From Pempheris klunzingeri (Eukaryota > Chordata > Actinopteri > Acropomatiformes > Pempheridae): a stretch of 64,000 nt of DNA. Each line of letters opens with the position of its first letter. The stretch's first letter is position 1. The notes under the pieces are model-generated. The model was not told the origin of the DNA, made no database searches, and saw only the letters and a program-made list of their open reading frames with translations. Below, piece after piece: positions 21,400 to 60,930 of this stretch. The DNA lies in NCBI RefSeq assembly GCF_042242105.1, contig NC_092034.1, positions 1,706,644-1,770,643 on the forward strand. The letters are read 5' to 3'. The position numbers and the translations under genes were made by a program.

Positions 21400-25034
<3,635 letters not shown>

Positions 25035-25908
25035 GGTGGTGATAGAAAATCAGGGAGCAGCCAGAATCAAATAGCAGCACCTGATTGGACAGATGGCGAA
25101 ATTATCAATAGAAGCCAACTACAGTACAATTCCTGAACTATATACCATTTATCAAACCAATAGAAAATAATGAATTCATGAATTTAGATTGATTTATTAA
25201 ATGACTTATATTACTGATACTAATGCCATCTTAAATTATCATGTTGCATCTACAAATATATTTTCCTGACTGTTAAATATCAACTCAGTTGCTGTTATTT
25301 CTGTTCTTTCCAACAGCTATTTTCTGTCAAACAGACGAATCCTCTCGGGATCAGTTTTTGCTCTTTTTGCTCTTTCCCCTGCTGGGCCTCACACAGCCGA
25401 ACTCATGACTGAAATGTCAGAAATTTTAATACCCTTCTTCTTGTCTTAATCAAGGATCCAACAATGAAAAATTACTGTTATTTTGCACACAAATAAACCT
25501 GATTTATCTGAACTAAAACGTGTGGTTTGTTTGGTATGGAAACAACATATCAGAGCATCAAAATAATCAAACTATAACTATGATTAATAAAGTACATCCA
25601 TCTATCTAGATGAAATGCCGTTAATAGGAGTATCATAGGAGTTATATAATCATCATCAAGATCATGTTTTTTTAGTGTAAAATTTTAATCAGCAAAGTGA
25701 CCAGTGCCACTACCTGCAGCTGTCAGATAAAACAACAACAATTTTGACTGAAATCGGCGCTTTAGTAGATTTCCAAATTAATGAGAACATAATGATATAA
25801 ACATTTACAGGAGAAAAAAAGTACAGTTAATTTAGGTTTAATATCACAAATCAGCATTAAGTCGCTGTAATCTCACTACAGTAATATTATATGTCCGTCT
25901 CTACATAC

Positions 25909-28644: not shown

Positions 28645-31600
28645 ATGTTGGCTACAGGAATTTGGCCTCTGTTCCTTCACACTCTTCTGTCATTCCTGCT
28701 TGGTCACAATCCCTCGCTGGCTTTTTCACTGAAGAACTGCACGATTGTGTATCCTGAAAATGTGAACAGTGTGCAGGTCGCGTGCAGTGACCGTGACCTT
28801 ACTGCGATTCCCGATGACATTCCCAGAAATGCGACATCCCTCGATCTCAGCTCAAATAACATTGTAAATATCAAAAGAGCAGATTTAAGCTGTCTGTCGA
28901 AGGTCGTCTCTGCACTAGTTCAATATAATTCGATTTCACACATTGATGACGGAGCTTTTGCAGACTTGGTAGAGCTGAGGGTCCTTATCATGGATGAGAA
29001 TGAACTCACAAATCTGACAGACAACATGTTTCTGGGACTGTCCAAATTAGTTACGATATCTCTGATGGGGAACCATATCTCACACATCTCCCCTAAAGCC
29101 TTTCAGTCCCTGGTCAGCATCCGTAGTGTCATACTGGGTAGCAACCAGCTACAGAGAATTACAGAAATTGCTCCAATCTTAAAACTACCATATATAAAAG
29201 ACTTATACCTTGGGTATAACAAGTTCGCCTCTTTTGACACAGACGACCTGCCTTTGAACGTCTCAAATCTTAGGTTTCTACAGATGGACATGAACCCACT
29301 GACAAAGTTCAGCATCACAAAAGACATCTTTCCTCATCTTCATGGTCTCGGCTTGAACAAGTGTAGCTGCGACCTCGAGTGGGACGTACCAAACAGAACC
29401 TTCCTGGGGAGGCTGACGAGTTTGTACTTTGCCGGAACTGACATTAGCTTTGAGGTGTACAGAACGGTGCTGCAGGACGCTACCTTGCTACAAAGACTTT
29501 CGCTGTCAACCATGAAGACGTGGATTGATAAAGGTCTAATAGACTTCGCTTGCCAAATTCCCTCTCTAAGAATTCTTGACGTAAGTGATAATGAAATTGG
29601 CACCGTAGGCGATAACCTGCTGCGGTCTTGTTCTCAGCTCACTGAGCTCACGTTATCTGCCGATGGCCTGTCTGGGATGTCAGATCGTTCACTCAGATCA
29701 ATGACACAGCTCAGGAGTCTGGAGTTGCACAGGAACGCTCTGTCCAAACTGCCACTTGCACTCCGAGGACTCTCCACACTGGAAATGTTGGATCTGAGCT
29801 CCAATCTCATCAGTGAGCTCGACTGCCTCGACTTTGTGAATTTAACGAGATTAACAGAACTTAACCTCCAACGCAATTGCATTTTAAATCTTCGAAGGTG
29901 CATCTTTCAACCCTTGAATGATTTGAAGGTCCTTAATATTCAAGAAAATTATGTTTTTATTCTTGACTTTAAAGTTAATTTGCAGAAACTGGAATCTTTA
30001 AAACTGAACAACAATGGTCACTTAAAGTTGAGGCAAGGAGACTTTGGGAATCTGTCTGCTCTCATTAATTTGGATTTAGATTCAGACACATTTTACTCAC
30101 TGTGGGAAGGGGTTTTCGAAGGACTTTATAATCTCCAAACTCTTAGTTTTAGGATCGCCTATTGCCACAAAGAGCATTTCAGAGGATTAAAACACTTAGA
30201 AAATCTGACACTACATCTTACCAATGATTGGACCCAGAAGAGTCCTCAACAAAATGATGAAGCACCTTTCTCAAATTTATACAACTTGAAGAAGCTTGTA
30301 ATCAAAGTGTACGACGAACACCTTATGCACATATCACCGGAGCTCCTCAAGGGTCTGAAATCTTTAGAGCACTTCATGGCTGACAGATTCTTCACAAAGT
30401 CATTGCACCAGGACACATTTAAATACACTCCCCGACTGAAGGGTCTTCAGATATCGCACAGTGATCTGTCATGTTTAACCCCTGAACTGTTCTGGCCAAT
30501 CCCGAACCTGCAGGTGCTCGATCTCTCCAGTAATAAATTGAGGTCGTTAGATTTCCTGGCCAGGGTCCAACTGCCAGGACTCCGCTGGCTAAAACTCAGC
30601 AGGAATTTGTTGACAATCATCAATGAAACAGTCCTCCAATCCTTCCCTGCCTTGACCTATCTGGACCTGACTGACAACCCTCTAACATGTGAATGCTCTA
30701 CTTCTGGCTTTAACCAATGGGTGCAGAGCAGCAACCAGACACAGGTTGTTAATGGCCACCAGTATGCTTGTGCCTTTCCTTTGAGCCAACAGGGAAACAA
30801 GTTCCTGGACTTTGACATCCACTCCTGTTGGATAGACGCGAGCTTCCTCTGCTTCATCTCCAGCTCTTGTCTGATTGTGTTCACTCTCCTCGCATCCTTC
30901 ATCTACCACTTCCTCAGGTGGCACCTAGCCTACGCCTACTACCTCTTCCTAGCCTTCGTCTACGATAAGAAGAAGAGAAGGAACGATGCTATCAGTACGA
31001 TGCTTTTGTGTCCTACAACGTTCACGATGAGGCCTGGGTCTACAGAGAGATGCTGCCAGTGCTGGAAGGAGAGCAAGGCTGGAGACTCTGTCTGCACCAC
31101 AGGGACTTTGAACCAGGTACAGACATTCATCTGTTTATGTTTATACTCTTCATGTCAATCCTTCACAAAGCAGCAACAGGATTTTTAACAACACAGGCCC
31201 TCTTTTCTCTGCTTCCTCTTTCACTGTCGTCTAAAATGTGGGCTTTTTCCTGTCAGAGATGTTGTGCAACTCTGACTGATGCTCCATCTATTTAAAAAAA
31301 AAAAAAACTATATTCAAAATGCGAATTTCATCTCCAACTAGGTTCAGTCCAAACTTCCGAGGGTTATCGTCAGAAAGCGTTCAACCCTAGACCATTACTG
31401 GTGGTCATTACAAGACTTTTTTTTACTTTTGTGAGTTTTTCAAAAAGTTTTACATTTTATGGTGAAAATCAAGGTCAGTGAAGTTACCATATACGGTTTC
31501 TTGCCGGTCTGTAATGAAGCCTGATTGTCCCTGATTGGCTTGGAGAAATCTCGTAGTTCTGCTGCCTCATGGTGAGGCAAGGGGGGGCATTTTGAACTGC

Positions 31601-32458
31601 CACTTCAGTAACCAAATATGGCCCCTTGCCCGATAAAAGGCTATGAAGGCGTCAGTATTTACCATCCTTTGTTGTTTTCAAAGGTAAGCCCATCGTGGAG
31701 AACATCACAGATGCCATCTACGGCAGCAGGAAGACCATCTGTGTGATCAGCCAGCACTACCTGCAGAGTGAGTGGTGCTCCAGGGAGATTCAGATGGCCA
31801 GGTGGGGGCGCCGTCTCTTTATCCGTGCACACTTGAAGCTGGGGGAGGCAGTTTTCTGGCAAAGAAAAGGCAGATTTAAAAAATACAGCTCTACCATCTC
31901 CGTGCTAAGTCCCTCAAATCGACAACCAGGGCTTATTTGTGCGCTTTGACGTTAGCAGATTGAACAGATTGTGACTGTGATCCCAATGCTGTTATATTGT
32001 ATAGCAGCAATTCTGTTTTCTTTGCTAGCATGTCACCAGGTAGATTTACTAAAACTTGAAAACAGCCCAGAGGAGCAGCACAAGGCCAGTTTACTGTCAG
32101 ACCAGCTGATCTACAACCTGAACTATGACACCAAAACTAAACTGCCTGCCTCAGCTTTATCACTTTCATCTCACCTGGTCTCAGACTGGTTCCAGCTCAT
32201 GTCCTGTGTTTGGGCGTCTGCAGCTTCCGTCTGTTTGACGAGCAGGAGGACGTGTTGATCCTGCTCTTCATGGAGGACATCCCGGCCCGGCAACTGTCGC
32301 TCTACTACCGAATGAGGCACCTGGTGAACAAACAAACCTACCTGAGCTGGTCACAAGCCGGCCGTCACACCGGAGTCTTCTGGCAGAACATACGGCGAGC
32401 TCTGAACGCAGCTGAAAGTCCCACCGAGCACACACACCTCCTCACTGGACACCTGTAA
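28645..32458 (+). CDS. Toll-like receptor, TLR13/22/23 (TLR11) group, with a frameshift
   Basis: Type I membrane pattern-recognition receptor of innate immunity. Exons: 28645-31116, 31684-31801 and 32224-32458, joined in phase; about 940 residues if the frame is followed. Order: signal peptide (about 1-27), some 20 leucine-rich repeats, cysteine-rich LRRCT (NPLTCECS, about 680-730), membrane helix (about 733-757), then a TIR domain with YDAFVSYN, LHHRDFEPG, YLQSEWC and FWQN motifs. Motifs and length fit fish TLR22/23 or TLR13-like receptors; I cannot separate these. Oddity: at 30976-30984, just after the membrane helix, the frame shifts by a net loss of one base, so the first ORF ends at 31188 without a TIR domain. 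An AATAAA at 32581-32586, 123 bp after the stop, is a good poly(A) signal. An acceptor at about 28590 suggests an upstream leader exon. Confidence 0.88.
32031..32072 (+). repeat. Segment shared with an abcg2 intron
   Basis: Near-identical partner of 1976-2017, inside the last TLR intron. Confidence 0.6.
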
Positions 32459-35018: not shown

Positions 35019-38000
35019 ATGTCGACCAGTGAGGTCGGCGGTAAGCAAGACTACTCGCCGGTGTCCTGGCGGGAGTATTTTGACCAGATGGAGGATGTGG
35101 GCGTGGGTCTGGCCAACAGTGGGGATGTCTTCAGGATTTATAAAGCAGGAACTGATGGACCCCTGCTGGTTCTGCTGCACGGAGGAGGACACTCGGCTCT
35201 GTCCTGGGCCGTCTTCACTGTGAGCGTCTGCACAGGCATCTGGTTGATTAATTCGCTGAACAGCTGATCAATTGATGCTCAATACTAGCACCATGTCTCA
35301 GTTCTTTTCTGTTTTGCAGACAGCCATCGCCAGCAGAGTGAACTGCAGGGTACTCGCTATGGACCTCAGGGGTCACGGTGAGGCAATAACATGTATGAAA
35401 AGAAGTTGTGTTGTAGAGATTGTAGACTGGGTCTCACCTGGGCAGGTATGAATGGTTCTGAATTGGATTATTAGCAGTGATGTGGAAAAAATGTCAAATT
35501 TGCATTAACTGCTATTCAACTTTTTTCTTTAATTGAAATACTGCAGGTGTTAATGTTACTGGATTTTGAACCACATATTTGTCTAATATGTGGTAATCTG
35601 TTAATTTAATTATTTTCTCTTAAATGCTTTTAAAATCACTGACTACAAATCTCTGAGGAGGGTCTCCCTGATTTAATATTAAATACGTTTTATCAGTCTG
35701 ATTTCAGTGGTTCAGTGTCAAGCTGCTATTATGATGTTGTTTTTTCAGACATCAGTGTTATTGTGATAATCTCCTCTGTTAAGGTGCCACCCTGGTGCAC
35801 CAATCGGACGACTTCTCAACTCAAACTATGTCCAGGTAAAAGCACAAGACACAAACTTCCAGCTTCTTACTTTAAATTAACAACCCTGCAAGTGACCGTA
35901 GGTAGTTCTCAAGGAAATCTGCTAGTATTCAGTCAGTGTTTATCAAGCCAAACTAGAGCTGCAACGATCAGTCTATTAATCGATTTGCTGAGTATCATAA
36001 AACATATTGGTAACTAGTTTGATAACTGACTAATCACTTAAGCCCTTTTGAAAACAAACAAACAAAGTTCTTAAATATGAAAATCTGCAGCTTTTTTTTG
36101 GTTTGGCGTCATAATTAATTGAATACTTTGGGGTTTTGGACAAGAGGTGATATTGTGATGGACGTTTTTCACTGTTTTATAATGGAATAAACCAAATGAT
36201 TGATCGATCAATAGAGAAAATAACTGGCAGATTAATCTGTAACAAAAATTGTTGGATGCAGCCCCAAACCTGATTATTATATAACCAAAAACAAGCACTA
36301 CCAAACCAGTTACCAATACTGTTGCTATCTGCTGCAATCAGTATTTGCTCCACCCCTCCCCAGTGACGTAGCCAATGTGATTCGAGTCTGCTATGGTGAC
36401 ACGCCTCCCCCCATCGTCCTGATTGGCCATGGTGTCGGTGGGGCGATCGCGGTGCATACAGCCAGCAACATGCTGCTACCAACCACAGTGGGCCTGGTGG
36501 CTATAGATGTTGTGGAAGGTAAGTGGAGGTATAAGTAGAAGCATTTTTACTCCCATCACCTGTGCATGCTGTGGATGTTCACATGTAACCTGGTCTTCTT
36601 CCTTCCTGTAGGCAGCGCAATGGAGGCACTCCACAGCATACAGAACTTCCTGAAAGGGAGGCCCAAGTCCTTCAAGTCCATGGACCACGCTATAGAGTGG
36701 AGGTGAGTATTTAAGGCTCAGTTTACACACTGAGTCACATACTGTGTGCATATCTGTTGGCCAGATAACAAATCTTATTCAGTCATGTTTTTTCTGGGTT
36801 ACAAGCACATGAGGGTTGGCTCAAGTCCAGTCCAGAGGGTGGTGGTAATTCACCTGGGACCGTTTACAAACTGCTAAAAACACTAGAAGTGAATGTGAAT
36901 TTAGCAGTTAAGCTGCAGCAATTAGCTTTTAGCACTAATAGCTAGCCAGCTAGCTAAGTCATTTTGTGTCCACTGATTTACAGACGTCTCTTTCGCAATG
37001 TAAAAATTGGTTTCAAAGCCTGGAGCATGTCCCTGGGGCTTGGACAGATTCTATAAGTAACCATTTCCACATAGCCTTTTTGATCTCAAATCTAGCCAAT
37101 GCCCAAGACTCATGAAGTTACGAAATGTAAATGGGTTTGAAAACACCTACAGGGTACAGATCAGAGCCAACCAGGTGGTCACAAGATAATTTACTGAATA
37201 TCGGAATAACTCAAGAACTGCCTGTATCCAACAAGCAACCATATTTACATTTCTGTGAAAAAACAAAGCTTTGATCATAATTGGTAATTAAATAGTTACA
37301 TTCAGACACACTCCTTACCACCCTGACCTTCATCTTTAATTGAAGTGTCCATTAGCTGCACTCACAAATCTAAACTAAACTTATTTCTCCTCTTCGTCTT
37401 CCTTTTAGCGTCAAGAGCGGGCAAATCAGGAACCTTGAATCTGCCAGAGTCTCCATGGTTGGTCAGATCAAAAGGTGAGCTGGACTGACGCTCAGGTTTG
37501 GAAGTAGATTACCCAACTGGCACCCAACCCAACATGACTGCGGTAAAGTAGACCCCTTGACTTGCTAAGATAACGTCCTCTCTCGTCTCGCTTCCTGTCT
37601 TGTCAGATGTGAGGTGGAGTCCGACGGTCTTGAGCAGGCCAGTCCGGTGATGGACATGGTTGTCGAGCGTAACGAAAAGTTTTACGATCAGACCTACGTT
37701 AATGACAAAGAAAACGCTGCCTCAGAGGTGAGCCTCAGTGAAGGCCAGGTATGAAAACCACTGCACAGAAACATTGACTTGCACTTATTTGCTAAGCTAA
37801 ACCTTAACTTTTAAATATTGCTTTGCCTTACTGACTTGAATTCTTTCCAACTGCCATTGACACTTCCATTGACTTTCATTTCAACACCTTACCACAACTC
37901 TTACTTGTATTGTGGAACCCCAAACTTCAACTAGATAAATACAGACAGGTAAACGTGTCATTTATAGTCTAACACTATCATTTACTTGCATTCATTTGCT

Positions 38001-40680
38001 GCTACAAATGCTCTGAACTTCAAAATAAAAAACACACTTAGCAGCACTTCCATTGACTTCCATTAATCTCCAAACATCAAAACCTAACCACAGCTCATAA
38101 ACTTCTCATACAGACTTAGATACCAACATGTGTGATACTTAATATGACTTGTGATTCCACTGACTTGCATTTAATATTCAACTTTTACCAGCAATGCAGA
38201 TAGTTTAACTTATTATGAAGAGTTATAATGAACCACGCTGTGTTTCTATGTCTACACATCCCAGAGTGTCTACAAGTGGCGTATAGATCTGTCAAAGTCA
38301 GAAAAGTACTGGGACGGCTGGTTTAGAGGAACCTCCAATCTCTTCCTGGCTTGCAACCTGCCCAAACTGCTGCTATTGGCCGGTGGGTACTCAAAAGCAT
38401 CCACGAGTCATTTCCTTGTGTAAAATAATACACGGAATGTGATTTTTGGTATCAACTGTTTTCAGGAATCGACCGGCTGGACAGAGACCTGACTATCGGC
38501 CAGGTGCAAGGTGAGCCGGTGACTCCGCGCGTGCAGTGGTTGCCATGGAAACCCTTCAGCTTTGGTGCGATGAGTTGTTGCCACGGATGTTAGTAGAGAA
38601 CTGGACACGGCGTTGGAGGCAGGGCTCCGTTCATTCCTATGAAATTAGCTTAGTGGTGCACAAAGAACAAAGACCCTCAAATTCCTGGGTATAAAAGTAC
38701 CCGGATCTTCCCGGCCCAGGTTTCTTCCTGTTAAAGGGGAGTTCTTCCTGCCTCTGTTTCCTAATATAATATCTGATGCTGCTCATGTGGGGATTCTTGA
38801 ATCCTCAATTTTTAATTCCTGAATCGTTGGGTCTCTCTCAAGAGAAAGCGTCTTGAGATAACGCTGTTATGAATTAGCACTATATGAATAAAGATTGATT
38901 GATCTTCCACACTGCTGGGCTTACAGAGCGTGGCACACTAGTGTCTCAGGCCTGTCAGGCCAGCTAACTTCCTGTTAGCCCTCCGCTAATTTGAATGGGG
39001 ATAAAATTATTTTATCACGCGGCTCGTCTACACTTTCCAGATGTTATCTGACTGAATTGATAAATTCTGATGGTGATTGTGACCCTAAAAAAGGTATCTG
39101 CTGGTTTATGGATGTCTCTTTCTCAATGGAAGTCTATGGAGAAAATTATTTTAAACAGATACATCTTTCAACATCAGTAAATCCAAAAACGTCCCAAACC
39201 CCCAAAACAGCAACAAATGCTGCAGTTGATAAAAACTGAATCAAGTACTTTGTACCAGACTATGACGGGACATGAATAAAAAGCACAAAAAGAAAACAAG
39301 CAAAAAACAAGTATTCTTCTCCTTCTTCAGCTAAATTATCTATTTCAAACTCTCCATGATGCATTTCTGTAGAATAAACAACCCAACAGGATATAAAGGA
39401 GTTAAAATGAGCTCAACCATATAAATCTACAGCAGCAGAAAACAACATGAACACGTTAAGGCAGCATCAGATATAAAGGAAACACTGACGGGGAAAATAC
39501 TACATACTATAGAGCTTTTCATGCAGGGTTTTTACGTGCAGTAGAGTATTTTCAGTGTCTAATATTAATAAGTAAAGGATTTGAATACTTTGTCCACATC
39601 TGGCTATCCGCACAAAAGATTTTTTATTGGGTTTTTTTTTGCCAGCACTAACAGCAGATGTTAGCAGGGCTGATGGGAAATGGAGTCCAGGAGAAACAAC
39701 ATGCGATGTGTAGAGAAACGCTGTCATATTGGGAATAGTTCTTGACATTCTTGTCACACTGGTTCTCCAACTGCGAGGGATGGATGAAGGGCATCTACAC
39801 TGCAGCAGAGGCGTCTCTAGAGACACACACACACACTTACACTCAGGTGTACACAGATACACACACCTTGAGGCGGCAGCTCCTCTCCAGAGTCAGCTGG
39901 TGCTGTCAGTCAACAACCACTGGAAGTGACAGCCCAGGAGGGCGTGCGATAAAATAGCATCAAATATACGTGTGTGAGTGTTGGTGAGACAGGTACGTCC
40001 ACCCTGAACTGTCTGTCTGTCTCGCTCTCCAGGTAAATTCATGATGCAGGTGCTGCCGCCCTGTGGCCATGCGGTGCAAGAAGACAAACCAGAGAAAGTA
40101 AGAACACCTTTAACGTCTCGGTCTTAATCAGTGGTGGAATGTAACTAAGTACATTTACTCCAGTACTTTTACTTTATTTTATACTCTAGTTTGACTGCTT
40201 TAAATACTTAGATTCACATTATTAACACAAAATATAACTAATAATTAGTTGCTGAGATATTTCAGTGCGAAACAACCAACAATCTCTTCCCTTAAACCTC
40301 CATGAAAAAAAGTAAAACAGCAGTAAAACACTAAGTATCATGGGTTTTAATGTGGCAGAGGTGGAGATGCTGTATTTCCCACTTGTGGTATTTGGTTGTA
40401 TTCAGTTTTACGGGCTAAAAGTTTACTCACGTGTGCTGCTGCCCCAATAAGTACATAAATACATTGGTTTGTCTGTTTATGTGAGTAGGTGGCTGAAGCT
40501 GTGGCCGCCTTCCTGATGAGACACAAGTTTGCTGAAGCCAGAAGAGAAACCAAGAGGTAAAACATTCAGATATCTAAAGCACAAAGCTAAACACTGTCAG
40601 CTGCCATTAAAATAAACTCCTACCTGACTCATGAAAACGTTCCTTATTCTTTCTCCAGCTCCGACTCCGTCACACGATGA
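35019..40680 (+). CDS. PPME1-like protein (PP2A methylesterase homologue) lacking the catalytic serine
   Basis: PPME1 is an alpha/beta hydrolase that removes the C-terminal methyl ester from the PP2A catalytic subunit. Exons: 35019-35219, 35320-35377, 35784-35835, 36364-36518, 36612-36702, 37409-37474, 37607-37727, 38265-38382, 38466-38510, 40033-40097, 40489-40556 and 40659-40680. All phases agree, giving about 353 residues (human 386). Kept: HGGGHSALSW loop (54-63), Asp152 in IDVVEGSAM, the SGQIRNLESARVSMVGQ block, WDGWFRG, and His in CGHAVQE. Lost: the nucleophile. Human GHSMGG reads GHGVGG here, with Gly127 encoded by GGT at 36431-36433. The acidic linker of PPME1 is absent; exon 7 carries unrelated sequence. 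The start is uncertain: ATG at 35019, or an upstream exon 34444-34472 joined in phase to 35030. A donor-like CAGGTAAG after the stop suggests a 3' UTR intron. Probably a pseudoenzyme paralogue. Confidence 0.87.
38690..38908 (+). mobile_element. LINE 3' tail (L2-like)
   Basis: TTAAAGGGGAGTTCTTCCTG, TGCTCATGTGGGGATTCTTG, GGGTCTCTCTCAAGAGAAAG, CTTGAGATAACGC and a terminal ATGAATAAAGATTGATTGAT form the typical 3' end of a common fish LINE. It lies in the intron between ppme1-like exons 9 and 10. No ORF remains. Confidence 0.7.
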
Positions 40681-43439
40681 GGTCGGCAGGTAAGATGTCA
40701 TTTAACATCTTCACCTGCTTGACTTCTGCTGAGCCTGACAGCGGTAGAGGAAGTACTCAGAATCAGAAAAACTGACTCACAGTATCAAAAGTTAAAGTTA
40801 TCAATGCAGAGAAGTGGCTGTGCATATACGTACTGTACATAAACACATACACATGTATATATGTCTGACCACCACATCCTATTACAGAGACTGGAACACT
40901 TTACTGGCATAAAGTCCTATTGATCAGATCGATTTCAGTTCGTACACGTTAACAATGAGTCCTCTGTCCACACTAATGGAGTTCCACAAGGTTCAGTGCT
41001 TGGATCGATACTATTCACCTTATATATGCTTCATCTGGGTAATATTATCAGGAAACACTCCATTAATTTCCACTGTTATGCAGATGATACTCAATTATAC
41101 TTATCAATAAAGCCAGAAGACTAAACTGAAGTTGTTCTGCTCGCCCCCCAGACACCTGAGAGACACCTTTTCTAACAATATAGCTGCTCTGGTCTATGAA
41201 TCAGGTCTATAAATAAAGATTGATTGATATAGTACATTAATAAATATGTTGTAGACTAACTGCAAGTTTAAACATCGATATATTTGCTCCAAAAAATTAT
41301 GTAAAAGACAGACAGATAGCTACTACAGGGCTTAAAGCTTGTTTTTCTCTTCTCAGACCAGGAGAAAGGAGCTCCAGATTCAGAGCTGACTGCTTCCACA
41401 TTTTCCTGAAGACGAGTTACAGACCTCCATTTTTATTTCCCATCTTCATCCTTTGTCTGAAGCTGCTGAATTTATACTCCGATAGCTCAGACTGTTTCTG
41501 TTCCGCTCCAAAGTATTTAATCAACCTGGAAAAAGATTAAAAGAGGCGTAGATTAAATATTAGAAATGACAAAATATAAATAATATTCACATAAAGATAT
41601 TAAGGCAAATTATTGGGATGCCGAGTCAAAATTGCAAGATATTAAATAACATTTATGACTTTGTCACCAGTTTGAGAAATTATGTGAACATTTTTACTCA
41701 TTAAATCAAAAATCACAAGATGTTTTAGGTCAAAATCATGTGATAGTACGTTTTGACTCCGTCACATAAATGTTCTCCTGCTAGCTAACAGTAGCTAGCT
41801 AGCTCAAACCTCCATTTAGAGCTGCTTTAACATCAGCTCCAACAGTAATCTGGTGAAGACATCGTTCTTACAAATCTTACATCTTTAAAATTCAATTTCT
41901 ACCATTTTACCATCCAGTGTCAGAAACTTTCCCTGCGATTAGTTTCGTGTTTACGTGAAAAACAACTTTACTTTTCATTTAACTTAACGATAATTATGGA
42001 TGAACTACTCACCTGTTTCCTCAGAAATGTTCCTCATGCAGAACTAAGTTGACGAAACATTCTCATGACAAACGCCAAATATTTTTACCATTATCATCCA
42101 TAAAAGTAAAAAATAAGCTAATAATACTAAAATGCATAGACTTACACCTGCACAATGCTCTGTTTAATTCTAATAGTTTAAACAATGGCCATTTTTAAGC
42201 GGGAATGTCGGGCTACATGGTATTTTTAAGATAGCAACTAGCTGTCTTAAGTAGCTATCTAGTACTAGCATTTAAGCTAACGAGAACTGCTAGCCAGCTA
42301 GCTGAAGATGAGTAATGACTTATTTGAAATTATAATTTAAGAGTCTTATTACTTCATTTTATTGCATTAGACAAAATAGTTTGACGTGACATTACCAACC
42401 GTGTTGCCTTCCATCTTATTAGCATTTTCCTCACAAAGGTAAACTAAAGTGCAGCACAAACTTGGTTACAAGCCATGTAAACATAGACGGACAGCGATAA
42501 ATACAATCTGTTCTGCCAATGATAAACAGAAAAGTATGTTTGAGAATTACTGAAAACGAGTGAAGAGAGATGTTTACCTTGTACGACCGTCAACGTGGGG
42601 AATAAAACATGCTAACGTTAGCAAAAATAAGGATGCCCCGTGCAGCTGGGCTACCGTTTAGTCTGCTGCCTCCTCCAGCTAGCTTGTCCCGTTACTACCA
42701 ATAGATGATTAAAAAGAACTAGTTTTTTAGTCTGTGTTTGTATGTTAACACATTCTCGGATGTAACTGTTGTTCTTTATTTACACTGTGTAGTATTAGCG
42801 CCCATTCACCTCATTAGATGAATGTGTTCGTTGTTCAGTATAAAGTTCACTGTGATTTATCTCCGTGTCCTTTCTGTGTCTTCAATTTATGACTGGTGTT
42901 TATTTTCTTCACTGGTAGAAATGTGTTTTATGTGATGTGGATAAAAGGTAGTTAGCATTAGCAACAATAAACCAGCAAGAAACTAATTAAGAAGCTGTGA
43001 CACCCTCATAAACTTTGTACATTAAATCTGGCAAAGAATAAAATAAGTGACAATCTCGTAATTACAACAAAAACATTCAATACTTACGAGTTCTGCATCT
43101 CGTAATACAGCTACCACTTGTTTTTCTATCTGCAACTCTGAAGCGTCTCCATTATTTCCTGCAGCTTTGCGACCGCTGGATGTTCCTTGAATGAAACACA
43201 TGAGCATCAATGCTAAATAAGTCAGTTTTCATTGGTGAAAAACTTGTTTTCACCAATGAAACAGCAAGATACACATGAACCCTCATGGAAAGTGTAAAAC
43301 ACTGATGATGACTGTTCTAATTTAATTTGCATAATTTGGAAAAACAAAAAAGTCCCATTGTTGGTTTTTTTGTTTGTTTGTTTTTAAGAGGACACACAAA
43401 CACCAGGCAGGAATAAAAACAAAAACTTGCAATAAAATT
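40681..43439. other. ppme1-like 3' region and intergenic DNA
   Basis: After the stop codon at 40680 a donor-like GGCAG/GTAAG and an acceptor-like TTCTCAG at about 41357 suggest a 3' UTR intron that contains the LINE fragment. Beyond about 41540 the DNA is AT-rich with many GCTAGC/GCTAAC words. A possible minus-strand exon at about 43193-43086 ends in a good donor (GAACTC/GTAAGT) and would encode a short peptide ending EKQVVAVLRDAEL; I do not recognise it and its acceptor is weak. Confidence 0.35.
40909..41232 (+). mobile_element. LINE reverse-transcriptase fragment (L2-like)
   Basis: One frame encodes [13 protein letters not shown] and, 26 residues on, [16 protein letters not shown], which are RT motifs including the YADD active site. 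A LINE-like tail (TCTATAAATAAAGATTGATTG) follows at about 41208-41228. It is truncated at both ends and dead. It sits in or near the 3' UTR intron of the ppme1-like gene. Confidence 0.75.
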
Positions 43440-51300: not shown

Positions 51301-54092
51301 TATCCACCAAAACACCGAGCGGCTTCCTTCCATGTGCCTATAAACCCGCTTCCTGCTCCAGTGTTTTACCTGCAGGGCAGTATGCGGACCACGTCGTTGG
51401 CCTTGTAGCCCTCGATGCAGACGGCACAGTTGTCGAAGTCGACCTCCGTCTCCTGGTCGCCCTTCCTGATGGTGCGAACTTGCAGCTTACTGATCGCCTT
51501 CTTCGCCGCGTCGCCAAGACGACGCTGTGGGAGAGAGAGAGAGGGTGAGGAGACGACGGCGGCGGGCTGAGATCAGCGGCATTAAACAGTTTCACATGTT
51601 TATTCTCTCTGTTGTATCTGATCCCAACATATATTTTAAAAAAAAAACCTTTCACAAACAGCCGTTAATTACACCCCCTCATATATCAGCAGAAGCAGCA
51701 GTGATAAATTATGACAGTTTGGATGAAAACACGATCAATGCGTTTCAAAATCAGTTCATTGTCTTTGTGCTTCTGATGACGTCACCGTGTTACAGTCGTT
51801 TTTCTCCAGTTATTTGATTTCTGAGGCATCACACATCAAAGTAAAGTATCACCACTGTACTCGTGTAACCAGGTTTCTAATTAGTTATCTACGTGTGAAG
51901 AAAATGCTGTAAGTCAACGGTAAACATGCATTAGTTCTTTCACAATTTCAAAGGGCCGTTTGAGGGTTAAGACTTGGTTTCAAAGTTAAGGTTAGATTTA
52001 GGCATTTAGTTGTGATGGTAAAAGTTGGGCTTAAATTGTGTTTATTCGGACGCAGGAGAGATCACTGGTGTTTTAATCGCTGTATGGGTTTTACACCTGA
52101 GTTGTGAGGACACTCCTACATTGTGAGAACAGGTCTTCACAACTTCGAAGGCCGTTTCAGGGTTAAGAGTTGGTTTTAAAGTTAGTGTTAGAATTAGGTT
52201 ATCGTCAGGCTAAGGGTCTGGGGAATGTCTTATGTCACTGAGTGTCCTCATGAATATAGAAAGATGACAGTGTGTGTGTGTGTGTGTGTGCGTACCTGGT
52301 TCCTGTCCCGTGCGTTGGCGTATCTGAACCTCTGAATGTAGTAGAAGACGAGCCAGGCGAGAGAGATGATCATCAGCACGATGAAGGAGATGGACACGAA
52401 CACCACCGACGTCCTGCTGACGTACTTCTGCAGGTTCCTCGTCCCAATCGTGATCGTCATGGTGACAGTGATGTTACGCTCCAGCAGTAACGCCACCTCG
52501 CGGCCTTTTGGCTCCGGGATCATGATGGCAACCACCTCGCCTGTACCTGATACACACAGTGGGAGGGGGGGTAAATTAGTCAGACAGCTGTAGTCTTAGT
52601 TTAGTTAGTGGTTAGTTTAGGTTAATCGCCACTAAAAACGAGTAAACATCAGTCAGTCAGATGCTGTTCGACCATCCAGGAAGTGACTAATTAACATCCA
52701 ATCAAACTGCTGTGTGGAGACATTTCTCCAACAGGTAAAATAGACAGAAAAATGAATGGAGATTGGTGCAGGAACACAAACTAATGATGAGCTTATCCGG
52801 CGGCTCCAAACCTTTTTGGCCAAAAATCATAATAGTGCATTTTATTCATAGAGAGCTTTAAAAAATACAAGGAAGCTTAATTTCAGGCACTTTACTCAAA
52901 ACAAGCACCTTGAAACACCACATTTTCAAGGATCTCCAGCACCTGTACAACCCTGTGCATCCATTGGTTATTAACTAACACGATGAGTCGCTCGGGTTTG
53001 TGTCAGCTGATGAATTAAGTCCAGTATTCACTCTCTTTTTGCTCTGTTTTTGGTCTCCACCACCTACTGAGGGCAATATTGGGTTCTTTAGCCGCTACAT
53101 TCTTTGCTGTGTTCACCAGCTGGTCTCTGACCGTGTGGAGCAAGTCATGTGCGGAGTATTTTTTAGGGGGTTTTCTCTGAAAATGACATTAAAAAGTGGC
53201 TGTAAAAGTGTGGCTGAACCGCTGAAACAATGAACTGAAACTCAATAAAACAGCTAAAAGCAGAATAAATCTCATCCTTTAGCACAGAATCTGTAAAAAT
53301 ATAAATTATTTAAAGCTTAAACAAGCAGTTATTGTCATCAATTGATCATTTTGCCTTTTCCATTTGAAAGTAGTGCAAAAATATTCAAAGTGTTGGAAAT
53401 AATTGGTAAGTACAAAAGGTTTTATAATTGGTCCAGTAAACCACCACCACCAGAACCTGTAAGAACCTTTTTGTCAAAGACACCAGACTCCATTCAGAAA
53501 AACAGCAATTTTACCTCATGGAATGAATTAGTTGCTAGACTAGATGCTATGAATTTAATGTTTTAAAATGTTGTTTCTGATCCAAACTAGCTCTTTAAGA
53601 CACGGAAATCACAAAATAACACTAACTGACTAACTCATTGAGGCAGCAGTAGACCAGCAACCCCTGTGTTTCTGCAAGGTAAAAATCACTGGTTTTGTCA
53701 AAGGAGTCTGGTGTGTTTGAAGAGGCCGATGTAATGGTTGAAAATCCCGCAGCCATTTGTTTCTGAGACGTTAAAAAGTGATTTCTTGAGTGAACGAGCA
53801 ACTGAAAGTGACAAATGAAGAGCCCGGAGGAGGAAGATGAAAGCAGAAACAACACTTGCTTCTCCACAGAGAAACAAGGGGTCAAAGGTCAGAGCGTGCA
53901 GCCGCTAATGATCCATCGTGTTCCTCAAGGACGCTTAAACAGAGGAGTGTGACGCCCAGAGCCACAAGCCGAACCACAACAGCTGCTTACTCGGAGGCTG
54001 TAACTGAAAAATAGATTAAAGAACACACACACGAACACCGTCTCTGTACTTGTGAAGAAGACAAGTGTGAACACAACTCCTTTCAGCCCTGC

Positions 54093-54137
<45 letters not shown>

Positions 54138-57100
54138 AGTGTGTGTCTGCTGCATTCAGGCTGTTTTGATTCAATTCTGCAATTTGAGGTTATCCTTGTG
54201 ACTGAGGCCTGACTAACTCGGCCTCAAATAACCCTTAAGACAGAGGAAAATTCTCCAGTAGGAAGGTTCATCCCCACAGTGAGATGTGACTGCAGTTACT
54301 TCACTTCCTCATGGAATATTGAACAAGAAAAACCAGCTCATCAGCGGCTTTGTAATGTGGAATTGCGGCCGTGATCGCACACAAATGATATGTCAGAGAA
54401 GTTGAAGAGTGCGGTGAATTCCTCCTGCACTTACAAACGGGTGTGACAGCGCGGCCGGGAATGTGTCGACACAAGTTTACAAGAAACCAGTCATGCGTGC
54501 AGACAGATGGTTTCACCGACAGCGAGGTGGAACGATCCTGTGCAGGAGCTGAATCGGGGTCATAATGGCCCTGCTGATGTCCCAAAATCAGTCTGGAACC
54601 ACACCTAGCTTCCCGAGCAGAGCTACATGTCAGGTTCCCTGGTTTTTCCTATTTTAAAACCTGGGAAATGTTGAAATGTGTCGGATTTTGTCTGCAACAA
54701 ACAGCTATAGAAGATAATAAAGTGCTTGTTTGATCCACTGACAGGCTCAGAGTGTTATTCTAAGTGTGTGACAGCATCATGGAAAGGATCCCTACAGAGA
54801 GAGACCTGGAAGATCGTTTTTTAAAACCAGAAACAGCCCCTTATTTTGCTCTCTTCAAACACACCAGACTGCATTGAAAAAAACAGCAATTTCACCTTGT
54901 AGAACGCAGAAGTTTCTGGACTAGTTGCTGTGAATTTGGCGTTTTAACATGTTGGTTCGAATCCAAACCAACTCTTAAAAACCACCAAATTAACACAATA
55001 ACACAAATTATTTAAGCTATCGAGGCAACACTGCACCAGCAACAACTCTGTTCTGCAAGGCAAAATTGCTGTTTTTGTCAATGGAGTCTGGTGGTTTTGA
55101 AAATGGTGGCCAGGAGATGTGAAAGTCCCCGACCAATCACATCTTTAACGACATTTGTGATGTCACTGGGAGGAAGATGATGGCAACAGATAACTCCCAG
55201 TAACAAGAACGTAAACAAACAAAGGTGCTATGATTGATCGCGGATCACTGGAAACAGTATCGTCCAACACCGATCACATGTGAGATGAGAAAGTATTAAG
55301 AATTCATATTTGTATTTATTGGCAGCAACGTGACTTCAACTTCATCCTCCGCCTGGTTACTGGGGAGAGTTTAGCAAATTAAAATTTACCGTGGAATAAG
55401 ATAAACAGCATTTTATGAAATAGAAATTATAATAAAAGCTGCACACAACACACCAAGTTAGAATAAATCATGTATACAGAGGCAACACAAGTCCAACAGA
55501 CAAACAAACTCCAGTGACTCAGACCATTCAACCCAACGTTTCTTCTTCTTTAACATCAAATTAAAACTTCAGAAGGAACTAGAAACAGGCCCACGGGAGG
55601 AACTGAAGAAGAAGTTAGCAGCCGTCCGTTTAGCTTTGTTTTTAGCCTCGGAGGCTAACGTTAGCATCTGTCAGGTGCTAATAGCGTTAGATTTTACCTG
55701 ATAAAACCTCAGGCAGACCTCCGTCTCTTCTCTTTGTCTGCTGATCCACGTCTTTGCGGAGCAGTGATGCGTATCTTTATCGATTAGTGATTGATGAATT
55801 ATTTGAAAACACCACGCCCACTTAGGAAGCAGGGAGTGTTTATTATTTTATTATTTACAGCTCGTCAGGCATCATCTTGTGTTATTGGAGGATGTTTGCT
55901 AGGACGCAAGTTTGCCATTTTTGCTTTGAAGTTAATTTAGTCACTGTGTGTGTGTGTGTGTGTGTGTGAGAATTCCCCCACAGCCAGCACTGAACTCACA
56001 TCAACCCCTCCAAACACACAAACAGCAACAAAATCAATTAGCCGCTGCCTAAAAATACTCCTCTGGGATCAATGTCTCTCTGCGAGCACACAAACAGTCG
56101 TCCTTCTATACCTGCGAGGACCTCGTTAACTTTTTAACGTTTAACACAACACAATAAAACCCCCAAACGGCCCCTTTGGGCGGGTGGGAACCAGAGTATC
56201 CTCGTTCTTGTGCGTCATTCTCCTAACTTAAGGAAACATTGTGGTGGCAGAGATCAGACTAGCTTGTTGTTCTGAGCAGCTCTGAGTTAATCTGAGGGTT
56301 GAAGTGAGGAATGATAAATCCGTCCGACTCCACAGAGGCTGTTTTTCAGGTGGATTAAGGCTCGTTCAAAGCAGAGAAGTCGGACCAGAACACAGATATG
56401 ATCACCATCACCCCCAAATCTAAGTCTCCTTCCCCTCAGAAATGCTTCTCAACCCTCTGATGGAAACACTCCGTCTGTGTTTCTTCTTCTGGTGATGTCG
56501 TCTCTTGGAGGATCTTCTTCTTCTTCATGTCCCTAAAATGTGTCCAACCTCAGCTAGAAGGTTCCAGAAGTCACTGAAGCAGAATGAGTGAGAAAAGACT
56601 TCAGACTGGAGAAACATGGAGGAAATCCAGGAATCAGACATGTTGTTCATCAGAGGAGACTAAAGAGAGACAGAGAACATGTTGATCCAGAACAACAGTG
56701 GATCTAAAGATCTGTGAACCTCCAGAGGAGATCTGAACTGTTTCAGGTTTTATTTTCTGAGCGACGGAGATTTGATAGAACAGAAAGATTTCCCCTGAGC
56801 CTCCATTGGTGCTTCTGCTTATTGTCCTCATGGTGGCCTCCATAGACCTCCACTACACACTATAGACCTCCACTACACACTATAGACCTCCACTACACAC
56901 TATAGACCTCCACTAACACACTGACTAACTAGCACACACACACTATAGACCTCCACTACACACTATAGACCTCCACTACACACTATAGACCTCCACTACA
57001 CACTAACACACTGACTAACTAACACACACACACACACACTATAGACCTCCACTACACACTGACATACTGACTAACTAACACACACACACTATAGACCTCC

Positions 57101-60100
57101 ACTACACACTGACACACTGACTAACTAACACACACACACTATAGACCTCCACTACACACTGACATACTGACTAACTAGCACACACACACTATAGACCTCC
57201 ACTACACACTGACACACTGACTAACTAACACACACACACACACACACTATAGACCTCCACTACACACTGACACACTGACTAACTAACACACACACACACA
57301 CTATAGACCTCCACTACACACTGACATACTGACTAACTAGCACACACACACTATAGACCTCCACTAACTTTTTTACTCTACACACTGAGGATCTGGAGCT
57401 CAGAGGTCAACGGACCCCTTTGAAAATGGCTAATTTGAGTCAGAAACTCCACGACGGCTCTTGAACGCAGCACAGAAGTTATTTGGGGGCTCATGTGTCT
57501 GAAGAACGAGGAAAAACTTCCCATCAAAAGGATAAATAAGTAAATATAAACGACCCCGACACCAAAACGCCACGAGGAAGTCGATTGAGAGTAAACACGC
57601 TCTCTGCTGGTCGTATTTCTCGTATTTCCAGCTCCCAAACGTCGTCTCCAGCTGTCGGAGGAGCAGCTGTTCCTGTGGATAAAAGCAGCGTGTCTGGACT
57701 GGGAGGCCTCCGCTACTACCGCTGTGTAACCCAACGCTTCATCACAACTGCTGACGGACGTCACACGGAGTTTCTCCGGACGTAACCGAATCGGGGGAGC
57801 GCTGATGTGGTTACGGGAGGTCTGGGAATCCCGGGAGACCGATGAAGCTTATCACAGTGCATCAGGGAGTCTACGCGTATCAGCGAGTTAGATCCACCAC
57901 AGTCTGAGGAGATTCAAGGCCAGTTTTCCACTAAAAACACATCTATTGTCCGTTCAAACTGATAATAACTGGCTGAGATCAAGAACATCTGTCCAAATAT
58001 GTTTATTGGTGCGAAGAATTATATTTTTTCTTACTGATATTAATCAGTATAACTGTGTTAGAGTCTGAAATTAGGTGTTTGTGTTATTATGGTTCTGTTT
58101 TACTGTTTAAACTTTTAAATAAAGAGGTAAACGCTGCCCATCTTCAATCTTTATCTATAGAGCGCCAATTCATAACAGCGTCATCTCAGCAGCTCAGACC
58201 AAACTCTTTGATTAGAGAGAGACCCAAAGATTCAGAATTTAAGATTTAAGAATCCCCACATGAGGAAGATCAGATATTATATGAGTGACAGGAAGAAGTC
58301 CCCTTTAAGAGGAAGAAACCTCAAATGTGTTTCCTCCACATCATTTATTGCTCCTCACATCTATATTCTGAGGGTGCGAGGGGTCATGTTTCCCACGGAG
58401 GCTCTTGCTAACTCCAGCATGTTTACATCTTGTGTTCATTAGCGTGTGTTGTCCCAAATAATCAACTGATAAAATAAAAACTTTAAAAGACACAACATCA
58501 CCATCAGCTCATGTTATATGTTCAATAGAGCCGAACCACAACAGGATAACAGACATTTAAATTCTCCTCTGATCTGATTTCATCAAAGATTAAATGTTCA
58601 TGTGTTTTGTTCTGGGGTTCAATAAATAAATATTCAAACCTTCCCAAACAGAATCAAATCACGTTTAAGGCCTTTTTATGAGCTGGTGTGAGTTTAAGTC
58701 ACTTTAGGGACCTGTGGCCCGACACAGTCTGAGGCTGTGATGACGCAGCAGGAAACTGGTCCAGTCCAGCAGCGTCACAGACCTGCAGTCAGCAGTTTGT
58801 CTGCTGGTCTGATAACCAGTTCAGACAGACTGGGATCCAGTTCAACACCGTCACTGCTCTCAGCCCAGAGCTGCAGCCGAGGATTACTTTCATTATCAAC
58901 TAATCAGATGATTATTCGGCCGATTAAAAAGGTCAGAAAGTCGTGAAAAAGGCTGGTGTGATGTCTTAAAATTCAGACAAACAAATAAATATTCATGAAA
59001 AGATCTGGATGTGTTTCTGAGAAGCTACCTTATAAGGAAAACAGTGTGGAAACTTTAAATTGCCAAATATTTGAATGGAGTCTGGTGTGGCAGTCTCAGT
59101 CGGCCCGTCTCCCTTCTCTTACTGTTTCTGAATGAAGCGGTTCAGTTTGGGTTGTTGCTCTTATATTCTAAGTTGTTTTGGGTAAAAGTGTCGGCTAAGT
59201 AAATGTAATATAACGTAGTGGCCTCATCTTTTCAGCTCCGCTTCTAAAATCTGTCTACGGCTCAGTTCAAGCAAAGGAAATCTACCGTTTAATGGTTTCT
59301 GCTGCTTTTAAACTGTATTAGGAACCATCATCCTAGAGGAAATCTAAATTAGCAAAATCACACATTATAAAAAACACTCTGATGTTATTAACGTGAGTGG
59401 AGCTGCAACGATGAGGTGATTCACGGATTGATAGAATCGTTTAAGCAGTTTTCAAGCAAAAAAACCCCATAAAAATCTTTTGTTCCAGGTTCTCAAATAG
59501 AAAAAATAGCTTAATTTCTTGGTTTTACATAAAACAATATTGATTATTTGAGTTTTAACTATTTGACGGACAAACAAAGACATCTGATGAGGATATTTCA
59601 TGATGTTTTAGCTCTCAAACCATTTAATAATAATGATAATAGTGATTTTATGATGGTGTGAATATAAACGCCCACCTATGGGTGACAGTTATTAGAGCTG
59701 CTCTCAGAAATAAACCACATTAACTGGCAGTTTAACTGGAAACAGTGATGATCATGAGGTGCAGCCCTGCAGGTGAGTGAAACACAAGAAACTTACTGGT
59801 TTTCAGTCATTTTAAGGTGGAAGCAAATTCACATTATTAAATAGTTTTGCTCCTGAACCACCTCCAGGATTATGATGCAGATAAACCTCTTCCCTACTTG
59901 TGCACCAGCCCAGCGGGACCTGCAGCTCCGTACCTGGATGAGGCATCGTGATGGTGTCGTTGGCGTTGGCGGAGCCCACGTTGAAGATGACCACCGCCGA
60001 GGCGTTGTGCGCTGCAGCGTGGCGGATCTTGTCCTTGTAGGTGCAGTTCCCCCGGGCCAGCAGGGCCACCCAGGCCCCGGCCTGCGCGGGCACCGCGAAC

Positions 60101-60390
60101 CGGGTGTTGGGGTCGCAGGCCTGGCGGTCGTGCGGGGCGGCGGGCAGCACCACCACCCCCTTGGCGTCCCTCTTGGGGGAGTGCTCCCCGTAGCGCCCGC
60201 ACTCCGTCTTCTCGGTGCGGAGCTCCGAGGTGGCCGGGTCCATGTAGGTGATGTTGACGAAGGCGGTGTACCACTCCTCCCGCTCGGCCACGGTGAAGTC
60301 CAGGCACAGCAGGTGGACGAAGCAGAAGGAGAGCAGCCACGTAGAGAGGGCCAGGCTGCGGCAGGCCGCCACCAGAGAGCCCGGGGCCAT
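48306..60390 (-). CDS. rnf150: RING finger protein 150 (PA-TM-RING E3 ubiquitin ligase)
   Basis: Membrane-anchored E3 ligase of the PA-TM-RING (RNF13/RNF128/RNF130) family. Exons in transcript order: 60390-59934, 52546-52296, 51524-51370, 50423-50327, 49686-49425 and 48424-48306; all in phase, 446 residues (human 438). Order: signal peptide [20 protein letters not shown], identical to the family member RNF150; luminal PA domain with [13 protein letters not shown] and IMIPEPKG; membrane helix about 200-222 ([20 protein letters not shown]); RING-H2 at 269-309 starting CAVC, with CRHLFHKSC and CPMC, all eight ligands present. Exon 5 encodes a Gly/Ala/Val-rich insert ([18 protein letters not shown]) not found in the human protein. 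The tail ends [21 protein letters not shown]. Intron 1 is about 7.4 kb and carries a tandem array, fold-back elements and a LINE tail. The first exon is strongly GC-rich. Confidence 0.96.
48432..48472 (+). repeat. (GGGA)n tetranucleotide repeat
   Basis: About ten GGGA/GGAG units, just upstream of the acceptor of the last rnf150 exon. On the transcript this is a (TCCC)n polypyrimidine tract next to the 3' splice site. Confidence 0.9.
48930..49016 (+). repeat. Four tandem copies of a 20-bp unit
   Basis: GGAATGTTGAGATTAACGAC repeated four times with one or two substitutions, in the last rnf150 intron. Confidence 0.9.
50969..51025 (+). repeat. Fold-back element, truncated copy D
   Basis: Only the left arm is present: CACCAGACTCCATTGACGAA followed by AACAGTCATTTTACTGTGAC. 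It lies in an rnf150 intron. Confidence 0.6.
53464..53728. repeat. Fold-back (MITE-like) element, copy E
   Basis: Left arm ACACCAGACTCCATTCAGAA ... CAATTTTACC; right arm GGTAAAAATCACTGGTTTTG ... GGAGTCTGGTGTG. The interior ATGTTTTAAAATGTTG and the GAGGCAGCAGTAGACCAGCA block match the other copies. In rnf150 intron 1. Confidence 0.75.
54093..54134 (+). repeat. (GT)n microsatellite
   Basis: GT run in rnf150 intron 1. Confidence 0.95.
54720..55105. repeat. Fold-back (MITE-like) element, copy F
   Basis: Outer segment GTGCTTGTTTGATCCACTGA ... GTGTGTGACAGCATCATGGA matches the right end of copies A and B in inverse orientation. The core runs from CACCAGACTGCATTG to AATGGAGTCTGGTGG. In rnf150 intron 1. 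Confidence 0.75.
56836..57365 (+). repeat. Tandem satellite-like array (CTATAGACCTCCACTACACA)
   Basis: About 530 bp built from a 22-bp unit (CTATAGACCTCCACTACACA plus CA) interleaved with GACACACTGACTAACTAACA blocks and short (CA)n. Higher-order units of about 60-70 bp are visible in the right two thirds. In rnf150 intron 1. There is no palindromic repeat with unique spacers, so it is not CRISPR-like. Confidence 0.9.
58110..58325 (-). mobile_element. LINE 3' tail (L2-like), inverted copy
   Basis: The reverse complement carries the same blocks as 38690-38908: AGGTTTCTTCCTCTTAAAGG, TCATGTGGGGATTCTT, TGGGTCTCTCTCTAATC and GAATTGGCGCTCTATAG. The element is oriented along the minus strand in rnf150 intron 1. 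Confidence 0.7.
59030..59115 (+). repeat. Repeat sharing GCCARATATTTGTATGGAGTC, copy 1
   Basis: GAAAACAGTGTGGAAACTTT followed by AATTGCCAAATATTTGAATGGAGTCTGGTGTGG matches two copies at 61905-62000 and 62108-62190. Its end, GGAGTCTGGTGTGG, is the same as the arm end of the fold-back family. Confidence 0.6.
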
Positions 60391-60930
60391 GGTGAGCCTC
60401 CCCGGTGAGAGCGAACCGTCCGTCGGTCGGAGGAGCCCGATAGCGTCACCGCCGCAGACGCCTACTCCACCATGCTACCAGCCGTCCGGGCAGGAGCTTC
60501 TCTAATCCGCCTTCCTGTTTCTCTTCGACGCCCGCTCCGTTGTCCCCCCTCCCGTCCCTTGTGTCACCCTTTTCCCGTGTTTTCAGCCGCTCCCCTCCGC
60601 CGCTCTCAGGCTAACGCTACCGAGCAGCAGACGCCTGCTAGCCGCCTCCATTACAACCAAGAACAAAACAAAAACACCCCCGGGACGAGCCTGGCCGCGC
60701 ACACAGCTGTGGACTAAACCCTCCGCGGGGACGCCGCCACTGAACCGCATCGAAATTAATTTAAAAGAAACAAACAAACCCCCGGCGGTGAGCTCGCCCC
60801 TCGCCGGGTAAACGGCTGATAATTCGGGATATTCTCGGCTAGCTGCTGGTCGGCTAAGCTGCTTTGTTTTGACTGGGCCTGAGCGGACCAACGGTAAGCT
60901 AGCTGGACTCACACAGCTAACTTCCGCTTC
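60391..60930 (-). promoter_or_regulatory. GC-rich 5' region of rnf150
   Basis: From the rnf150 first exon (59934-60390) to about 60800 the DNA is rich in G+C and CpG compared with AT-rich flanks, as in a CpG-island promoter. No TATA box at a clear distance is seen and the transcription start cannot be placed. Confidence 0.45.

Follow-up and report, generated by a model that had tools for sequence, protein, structure and literature searches.

Results

We analysed a stretch of 64,000 nucleotides from the fish Pempheris klunzingeri (contig NC_092034.1, positions 1,706,644 to 1,770,643 of the forward strand), referred to below as the window. It carries a gene homologous to protein phosphatase methylesterase 1 (PPME1, or PME-1), here called ppme1-like, which lies 2.5 kb downstream of a Toll-like receptor (TLR) gene on the same strand. 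The 12 exons of ppme1-like (Table 1) join into a 1062-nt frame that runs uninterrupted through 353 codons to the stop, and all 11 introns are of the GT-AG type, in agreement with the initial annotation, which had described a 12-exon gene in phase throughout. Neither the start codon (ATG at 35019) nor the final exon of 22 nt (40659-40680) is backed by homology. Exon 7 exhibits two in-phase donors (37727 and 37748), 21 nt apart, the second of which adds seven residues and would give rise to loop isoforms of differing length. A similar tail, aataaagattgattga, was observed within an intron (38600-39000) and in the 3' flank (40900-41220), and both stretches are probably remains of mobile elements.

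When compared with the PDB by phmmer, the window protein matched human PPME1 with E values of 1.6e-144 (7soy), 4.3e-140 (3c5v) and 1.4e-139 (3c5w), whereas the best chain from any other protein gave 3.9e-09, which confirms the proposed homology. The Pfam families Abhydrolase_6 and Abhydrolase_1 also exceeded their cut-off. The nucleophile elbow, encoded by GGC CAT GGT GTC GGT GGG, reads GHGVGG in place of the GHSMGG of PPME1. As had been annotated, the catalytic serine (S156 in the human enzyme) is replaced by a glycine, G127, whose codon GGT at 36431-36433 was read in one assembly. The remaining triad members are retained: D152 and H315 align with human D181 and H349, the spacing between G127 and D152 is 25 residues, and H315 is found within CGHAVQE. 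The HGGGH block is also kept. The direct reading of the sequence is a catalytically dead PPME1 paralogue, which should not remove methyl groups from PP2A. As a search probe, a nucleotide pattern of the elbow proved uninformative (278 and 288 matches vs 447 and 405 for the control), and an orthologue search by pattern confirmed none of 441 matches in genome contigs and none of 53 in viral contigs.

A six-frame search of the fish's own genome (646 Mb, 439 contigs, matches taken up to E 1) returned 19 matches: 11 at the window locus, 7 on contig C14 (~9.1617-9.1650 Mb) and 1 on C10, which was set aside as weak (E 0.67). The C14 matches revealed a second ppme1 with GHSMGG and the full triad, modelled as 377 residues over 14 exons, among them an N-terminal exon; its protein has an acidic loop, and one donor of the model (gtctctct) is weak. 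Two UCP2/UCP3-like genes adjoin the C14 gene, and a nearby open reading frame (ORF) resembles DNAJB13 by eye. Given that the UCP2/UCP3 neighbourhood is the published location of teleost PPME1 (PMC3428666; published work is cited throughout from the available parts of each paper), we regard the C14 gene as the canonical enzyme and the window gene as an extra copy. An essential catalytic residue is thus absent from the window copy while a canonical copy exists elsewhere in the genome. As the C14 copy has the serine, the aspartate and the histidine, loss of activity at the window locus leaves the cell its enzyme.

The window protein is identical to human PPME1 at 210 of 333 positions (63%) and to the C14 protein at 204 of 347 (59%), and the human and C14 proteins agree at 273 of 339. 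The 11 introns of the window gene correspond in phase to introns 3-13 of the C14 gene, and exon length agrees for 8 of the 10 internal exons, the loop being encoded by the other two. Since these introns are common to both copies, a processed retrocopy was rejected, as was a tandem duplicate of the canonical gene, which sits on a different contig. Apart from its elbow, N-terminal exon and acidic loop, the C14 gene differs from the window copy in its C-terminus and in an intron (minus strand, 9165244 to 9165030; donor ATATCCTT, AC end at KD/IFRIY) which we take to be of the U12-type AT-AC class and which has no counterpart at that place in the window copy.

Among 333 gap-free columns of the human, C14 and window proteins, 189 were identical, 80 were changed in the window protein only, 21 in C14 only and 12 in human only, and 31 differed in all three. 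The window-only changes being the most numerous, the window copy evolved fastest. The identities and the excess of C14-only over human-only changes lean to a split older than that of fish and tetrapods, in a comparison made without an outgroup and with a fast-evolving window copy. The duplication may go back to that of the teleost genome or to an older one. A known teleost duplicate block comprises UCP3L, CAMKK1 and C2CD3 (PMC3428666); UCP2 was matched in the window at E 0.38 at best. In the reading we favour, the duplication that produced the window gene from PPME1 was DNA-based and is old.

With regard to selection, the window and C14 copies are identical at 67, 80 and 37% of first, second and third codon positions. 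Fourfold sites common to both are identical at 27 of 92, which is near the composition expectation of 24% and indicates that synonymous change is saturated. A pairwise codon model gave an omega (dN/dS, the ratio of nonsynonymous to synonymous change) of 0.041, with 2dlnL of 208 against an omega of 1 and a dS of 7.8 that is unreliable as a number. LWL85 gave a dN of 0.36, a dS of 1.88 and a ratio of ~0.19, and dS by NG86 was saturated. These values average both lineages under saturated dS and are compatible with recent relaxation. Of 1000 neutral simulations per setting, one kept an open frame at 0.25 substitutions per site and none did at 0.5, 1.0 or 1.5. Of the positions common to human and C14, the window copy keeps 189/269. 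The window gene has been under long-term constraint. A decayed pseudogene, as an old state, is rejected by the open frame, the canonical splice sites, the simulations and the omega values, and the earlier view that the gene is not decaying is upheld at the level of sequence.

Functional sites, including contacts with PP2A and its B56 subunit, were assessed at 24 human PPME1 positions, taken from PMC9398451 and PMC6120246 together with some neighbours. Nine are kept (D181, Q195, N196, K217, E256, M341, Q342, V343 and H349) and 15 are changed (R37G, R39Q, S156G, M157V, N192H, R199K, V251M, E252D, G253M, I254V, I255V, E257R, E258N, M335V and Q346P). The M342/V343 pair named in PMC9398451 mismatches the numbering used here, where Q342 is found, and was not used. 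The initial annotation had invoked conserved surface blocks; the changed positions, including M335V, R37G, R39Q, N192H and R199K, make the claim weaker than stated. Within block limits chosen in this analysis, the window protein retains, at positions shared by human and C14, 28/34 residues in 319-352, 36/44 in 191-238 and 4/23 in the loop 239-282. The first of these blocks covers part of the surface binding the PP2A catalytic subunit (PP2Ac) and includes the triad histidine and M335, the latter replaced by valine. As for the B56 docking sites, Q195, N196 and K217 are kept, and R199K, R37G, R39Q and N192H are changes.

At human positions 251-256 the window protein reads MDMVVE, which fits a relaxed LxxIxE pattern, [LVMICF]xx[IVL]xE. 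Human V251, which belongs to the B56 motif, is a glycine in C14, and the relaxed pattern is consequently absent from the C14 loop but present in the window loop; the two paralogues may have divided B56 docking between them. In ~3 kb upstream, the search for an exon encoding the N-terminal docking region gave no convincing candidate, although it would miss one that has diverged or lies further away; nothing passed the donor filter, and the best alignments, scoring 23-27, had no shared motif.

Table 1. Features of the ppme1-like locus, in window coordinates.
Feature	Position	Strand	Remarks
TLR gene (LRR + TIR; best PDB match TLR13), taken as tlr23a	28657..32458	+	end = stop of last in-frame ORF
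ppme1-like exon 1	35019..35219	+	start codon inferred; covers position of the U12-like AT-AC intron of C14, absent here
ppme1-like exon 2	35320..35377	+	58 nt; length equal to C14
ppme1-like exon 3	35784..35835	+	52 nt; length equal to C14
ppme1-like exon 4	36364..36518	+	155 nt; length equal to C14; GHGVGG nucleophile elbow, triad Asp
Catalytic Ser position (human S156), GGT = Gly	36431..36433	+	
ppme1-like exon 5	36612..36702	+	91 nt; length equal to C14; N192H, R199K
ppme1-like exon 6	37409..37474	+	66 nt; length equal to C14
ppme1-like exon 7	37607..37727	+	121 nt vs 127 in C14; diverged internal loop, in which MDMVVE resembles LxxIxE; second in-phase donor after 37748
ppme1-like exon 8	38265..38382	+	118 nt vs 130 in C14
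ppme1-like exon 9	38466..38510	+	45 nt; length equal to C14; TIGQVQG, M335V
ppme1-like exon 10	40033..40097	+	65 nt; length equal to C14; triad His in CGHAVQE
ppme1-like exon 11	40489..40556	+	68 nt; length equal to C14; C-terminal helix
ppme1-like exon 12	40659..40680	+	22 nt, stop TGA; C-terminus differs from that of C14
PA-domain exon (PDB match RNF128) and RING-like exon (Pfam below cut-off), taken as rnf150	51369..60474	-	limits = ORFs examined

Discussion

The reading we favour, to which we give about an even chance, is that this paralogue lost its methylesterase chemistry through the Ser-to-Gly change, kept the alpha/beta-hydrolase fold and acts as a non-catalytic brake on PP2A. A close precedent is the S156A mutant of human PME-1, which has lost its activity but still binds PP2Ac and inhibits it (PMC6120246, PMC4683032). 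The behaviour ascribed earlier to Ser156 mutants is thus documented for the alanine mutant. In that case, however, an engineered alanine sits in an otherwise intact protein, whereas here a glycine occurs in a diverged paralogue; in the available parts of the literature examined, tests of Gly at 156 or of Val at 335 in PME-1 were not found. With human PPME1 (3C5V, 3C5W, 7SOY), the window protein shares homology over the whole fold, the Asp and His, HGGGH, the TIGQxQGKF block and an LxxIxE-type loop motif. It differs in S156G, M157V, M335V, R37G, R39Q, N192H and R199K, in a shorter and diverged loop and in the N-terminal docking exon, which was not found.

From these features we infer a protein that performs no catalysis, binds PP2A and competes with canonical PPME1. 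Its conserved face, which contains TIGQxQG, would dock on PP2Ac, whose tail would enter the pocket that has lost its nucleophile. Once bound, the window protein would occlude the phosphatase site, and the methyl-Leu309 tail would be shielded rather than demethylated. Such a brake would compete with the canonical enzyme encoded on C14. With no N-terminal docking region identified, the window protein probably has a more restricted range than PPME1: it would act on the core enzyme, and B56 holoenzymes could be reached via the remaining LxxIxE-like motif.

Several observations weigh against this reading. M335 is replaced by valine, and human M335D abolishes stable PP2Ac binding and inhibition, although it still demethylates with an efficacy lower by about half (PMC6120246). 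The loop 239-282 retains just 4/23 shared residues, and R37G, R39Q, N192H and R199K fall on known B56 contacts (PMC9398451). The folded cores of human and C14 PPME1 each contain two matches to the relaxed LxxIxE pattern as well, which makes the motif weak evidence. The docking exon, which was not found in ~3 kb upstream, corresponds to the region of residues 1-18, and PME-1 lacking the first 18 residues (delta-N18) loses PR70 binding and shows weakened B56 and B-alpha binding (PMC9398451). The omega values average both lineages. Finally, D181 and H349 are kept, though an old catalytic loss would not require them; the glycine could therefore be recent. PP2A binding by the window protein is still plausible, but the changes at several contact residues make it less certain than the initial annotation had it.

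The position of the gene has a parallel in other fish. A gene named ppme1-like adjoins tlr23a in mudskipper, yellowtail kingfish, amberjack and Asian seabass (PMC6403153), and ppme1 is listed with rnf150 on Solea BAC 4D15 (PMC6579814, PMC7915175). Given that both the gene name and the neighbours match the window locus, these genes are very likely orthologues, and the match suggests that ppme1-like held its place across several percomorph families. The active site goes undiscussed in the available parts of these reports, and in the literature searched, whose coverage is incomplete, no report of a missing serine in ppme1-like was found.

In an alternative reading, the serine was lost recently and only here, through an inactivating substitution in this species or individual, or the glycine is a base-call error. 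In other fish the paralogue would then be a specialised methylesterase that is still active, and Asp and His would remain because activity persisted until recently. The retention of D181, H349 and HGGGH, the single step from AGT to GGT, the reliance on a single assembly and the freedom of the gene from further lesions are consistent with this. However, the adjacent M157 has become valine and M335 has also changed, so that more than a single step of change has occurred at the site, and the 80 window-only changes, as opposed to 21 in C14 and 12 in human, form the pattern of a paralogue with an altered duty. We consider a recent private change unlikely, though a serious possibility.

The losses at the contact surface could instead mean that the protein is a pseudoenzyme which no longer acts on PP2A and whose hydrolase fold persists to scaffold a different partner, much like the NDRG proteins. 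NDRG3 has likewise kept the fold and lost the nucleophile, but it is described with every triad site substituted, whereas the window protein lost the nucleophile alone (PMC7022630). Several PP2A and B56 contact residues are lost or weakened and the upstream search revealed no N-terminal docking region, as this explanation would have it; nevertheless, the blocks 319-352 and 191-238 keep 28/34 and 36/44 residues, and a B56-like motif persists within an otherwise diverged loop. In light of these, a role away from PP2A appears quite improbable. A dying duplicate, that is, an early pseudogene with no function, would fit a copy that evolves faster than its C14 counterpart and whose N-terminus is possibly shortened. 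It is at odds with the open frame, the canonical splice sites throughout, an omega far below 1, the neutral simulations and the occurrence of an identically named gene at this position in other fish, and we deem it very improbable.

Should the window protein indeed be a non-catalytic brake, it would bear on a difficulty in the study of PME-1, whose two activities, demethylation of PP2Ac and blocking of PP2A by binding, are hard to separate in cells. A natural paralogue with no demethylation would demonstrate that PP2A binding is retained for its own sake and provide a ready system for separating both activities. It would also change the reading of the role proposed for ppme1 in tlr23a signalling in mudskipper (PMC6403153), as the window copy should not act by demethylation. 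A bolder form of the proposal, which on the sequence evidence we regard as speculative and improbable as a whole, is that percomorphs carry a natural equivalent of S156A beside tlr23a, which clamps PP2A (the core enzyme, perhaps B56 holoenzymes) with no demethylation, sets PP2A activity in innate-immune signalling and competes with the canonical enzyme.

Elsewhere in the window, ABCG2-like and PPM1K-like exons were observed on the minus strand at 587-892 and 14462-14656, PPM1K being itself a phosphatase. Two long, low-complexity ORFs of 442 and 615 aa lie on the minus strand at 21403-25049.

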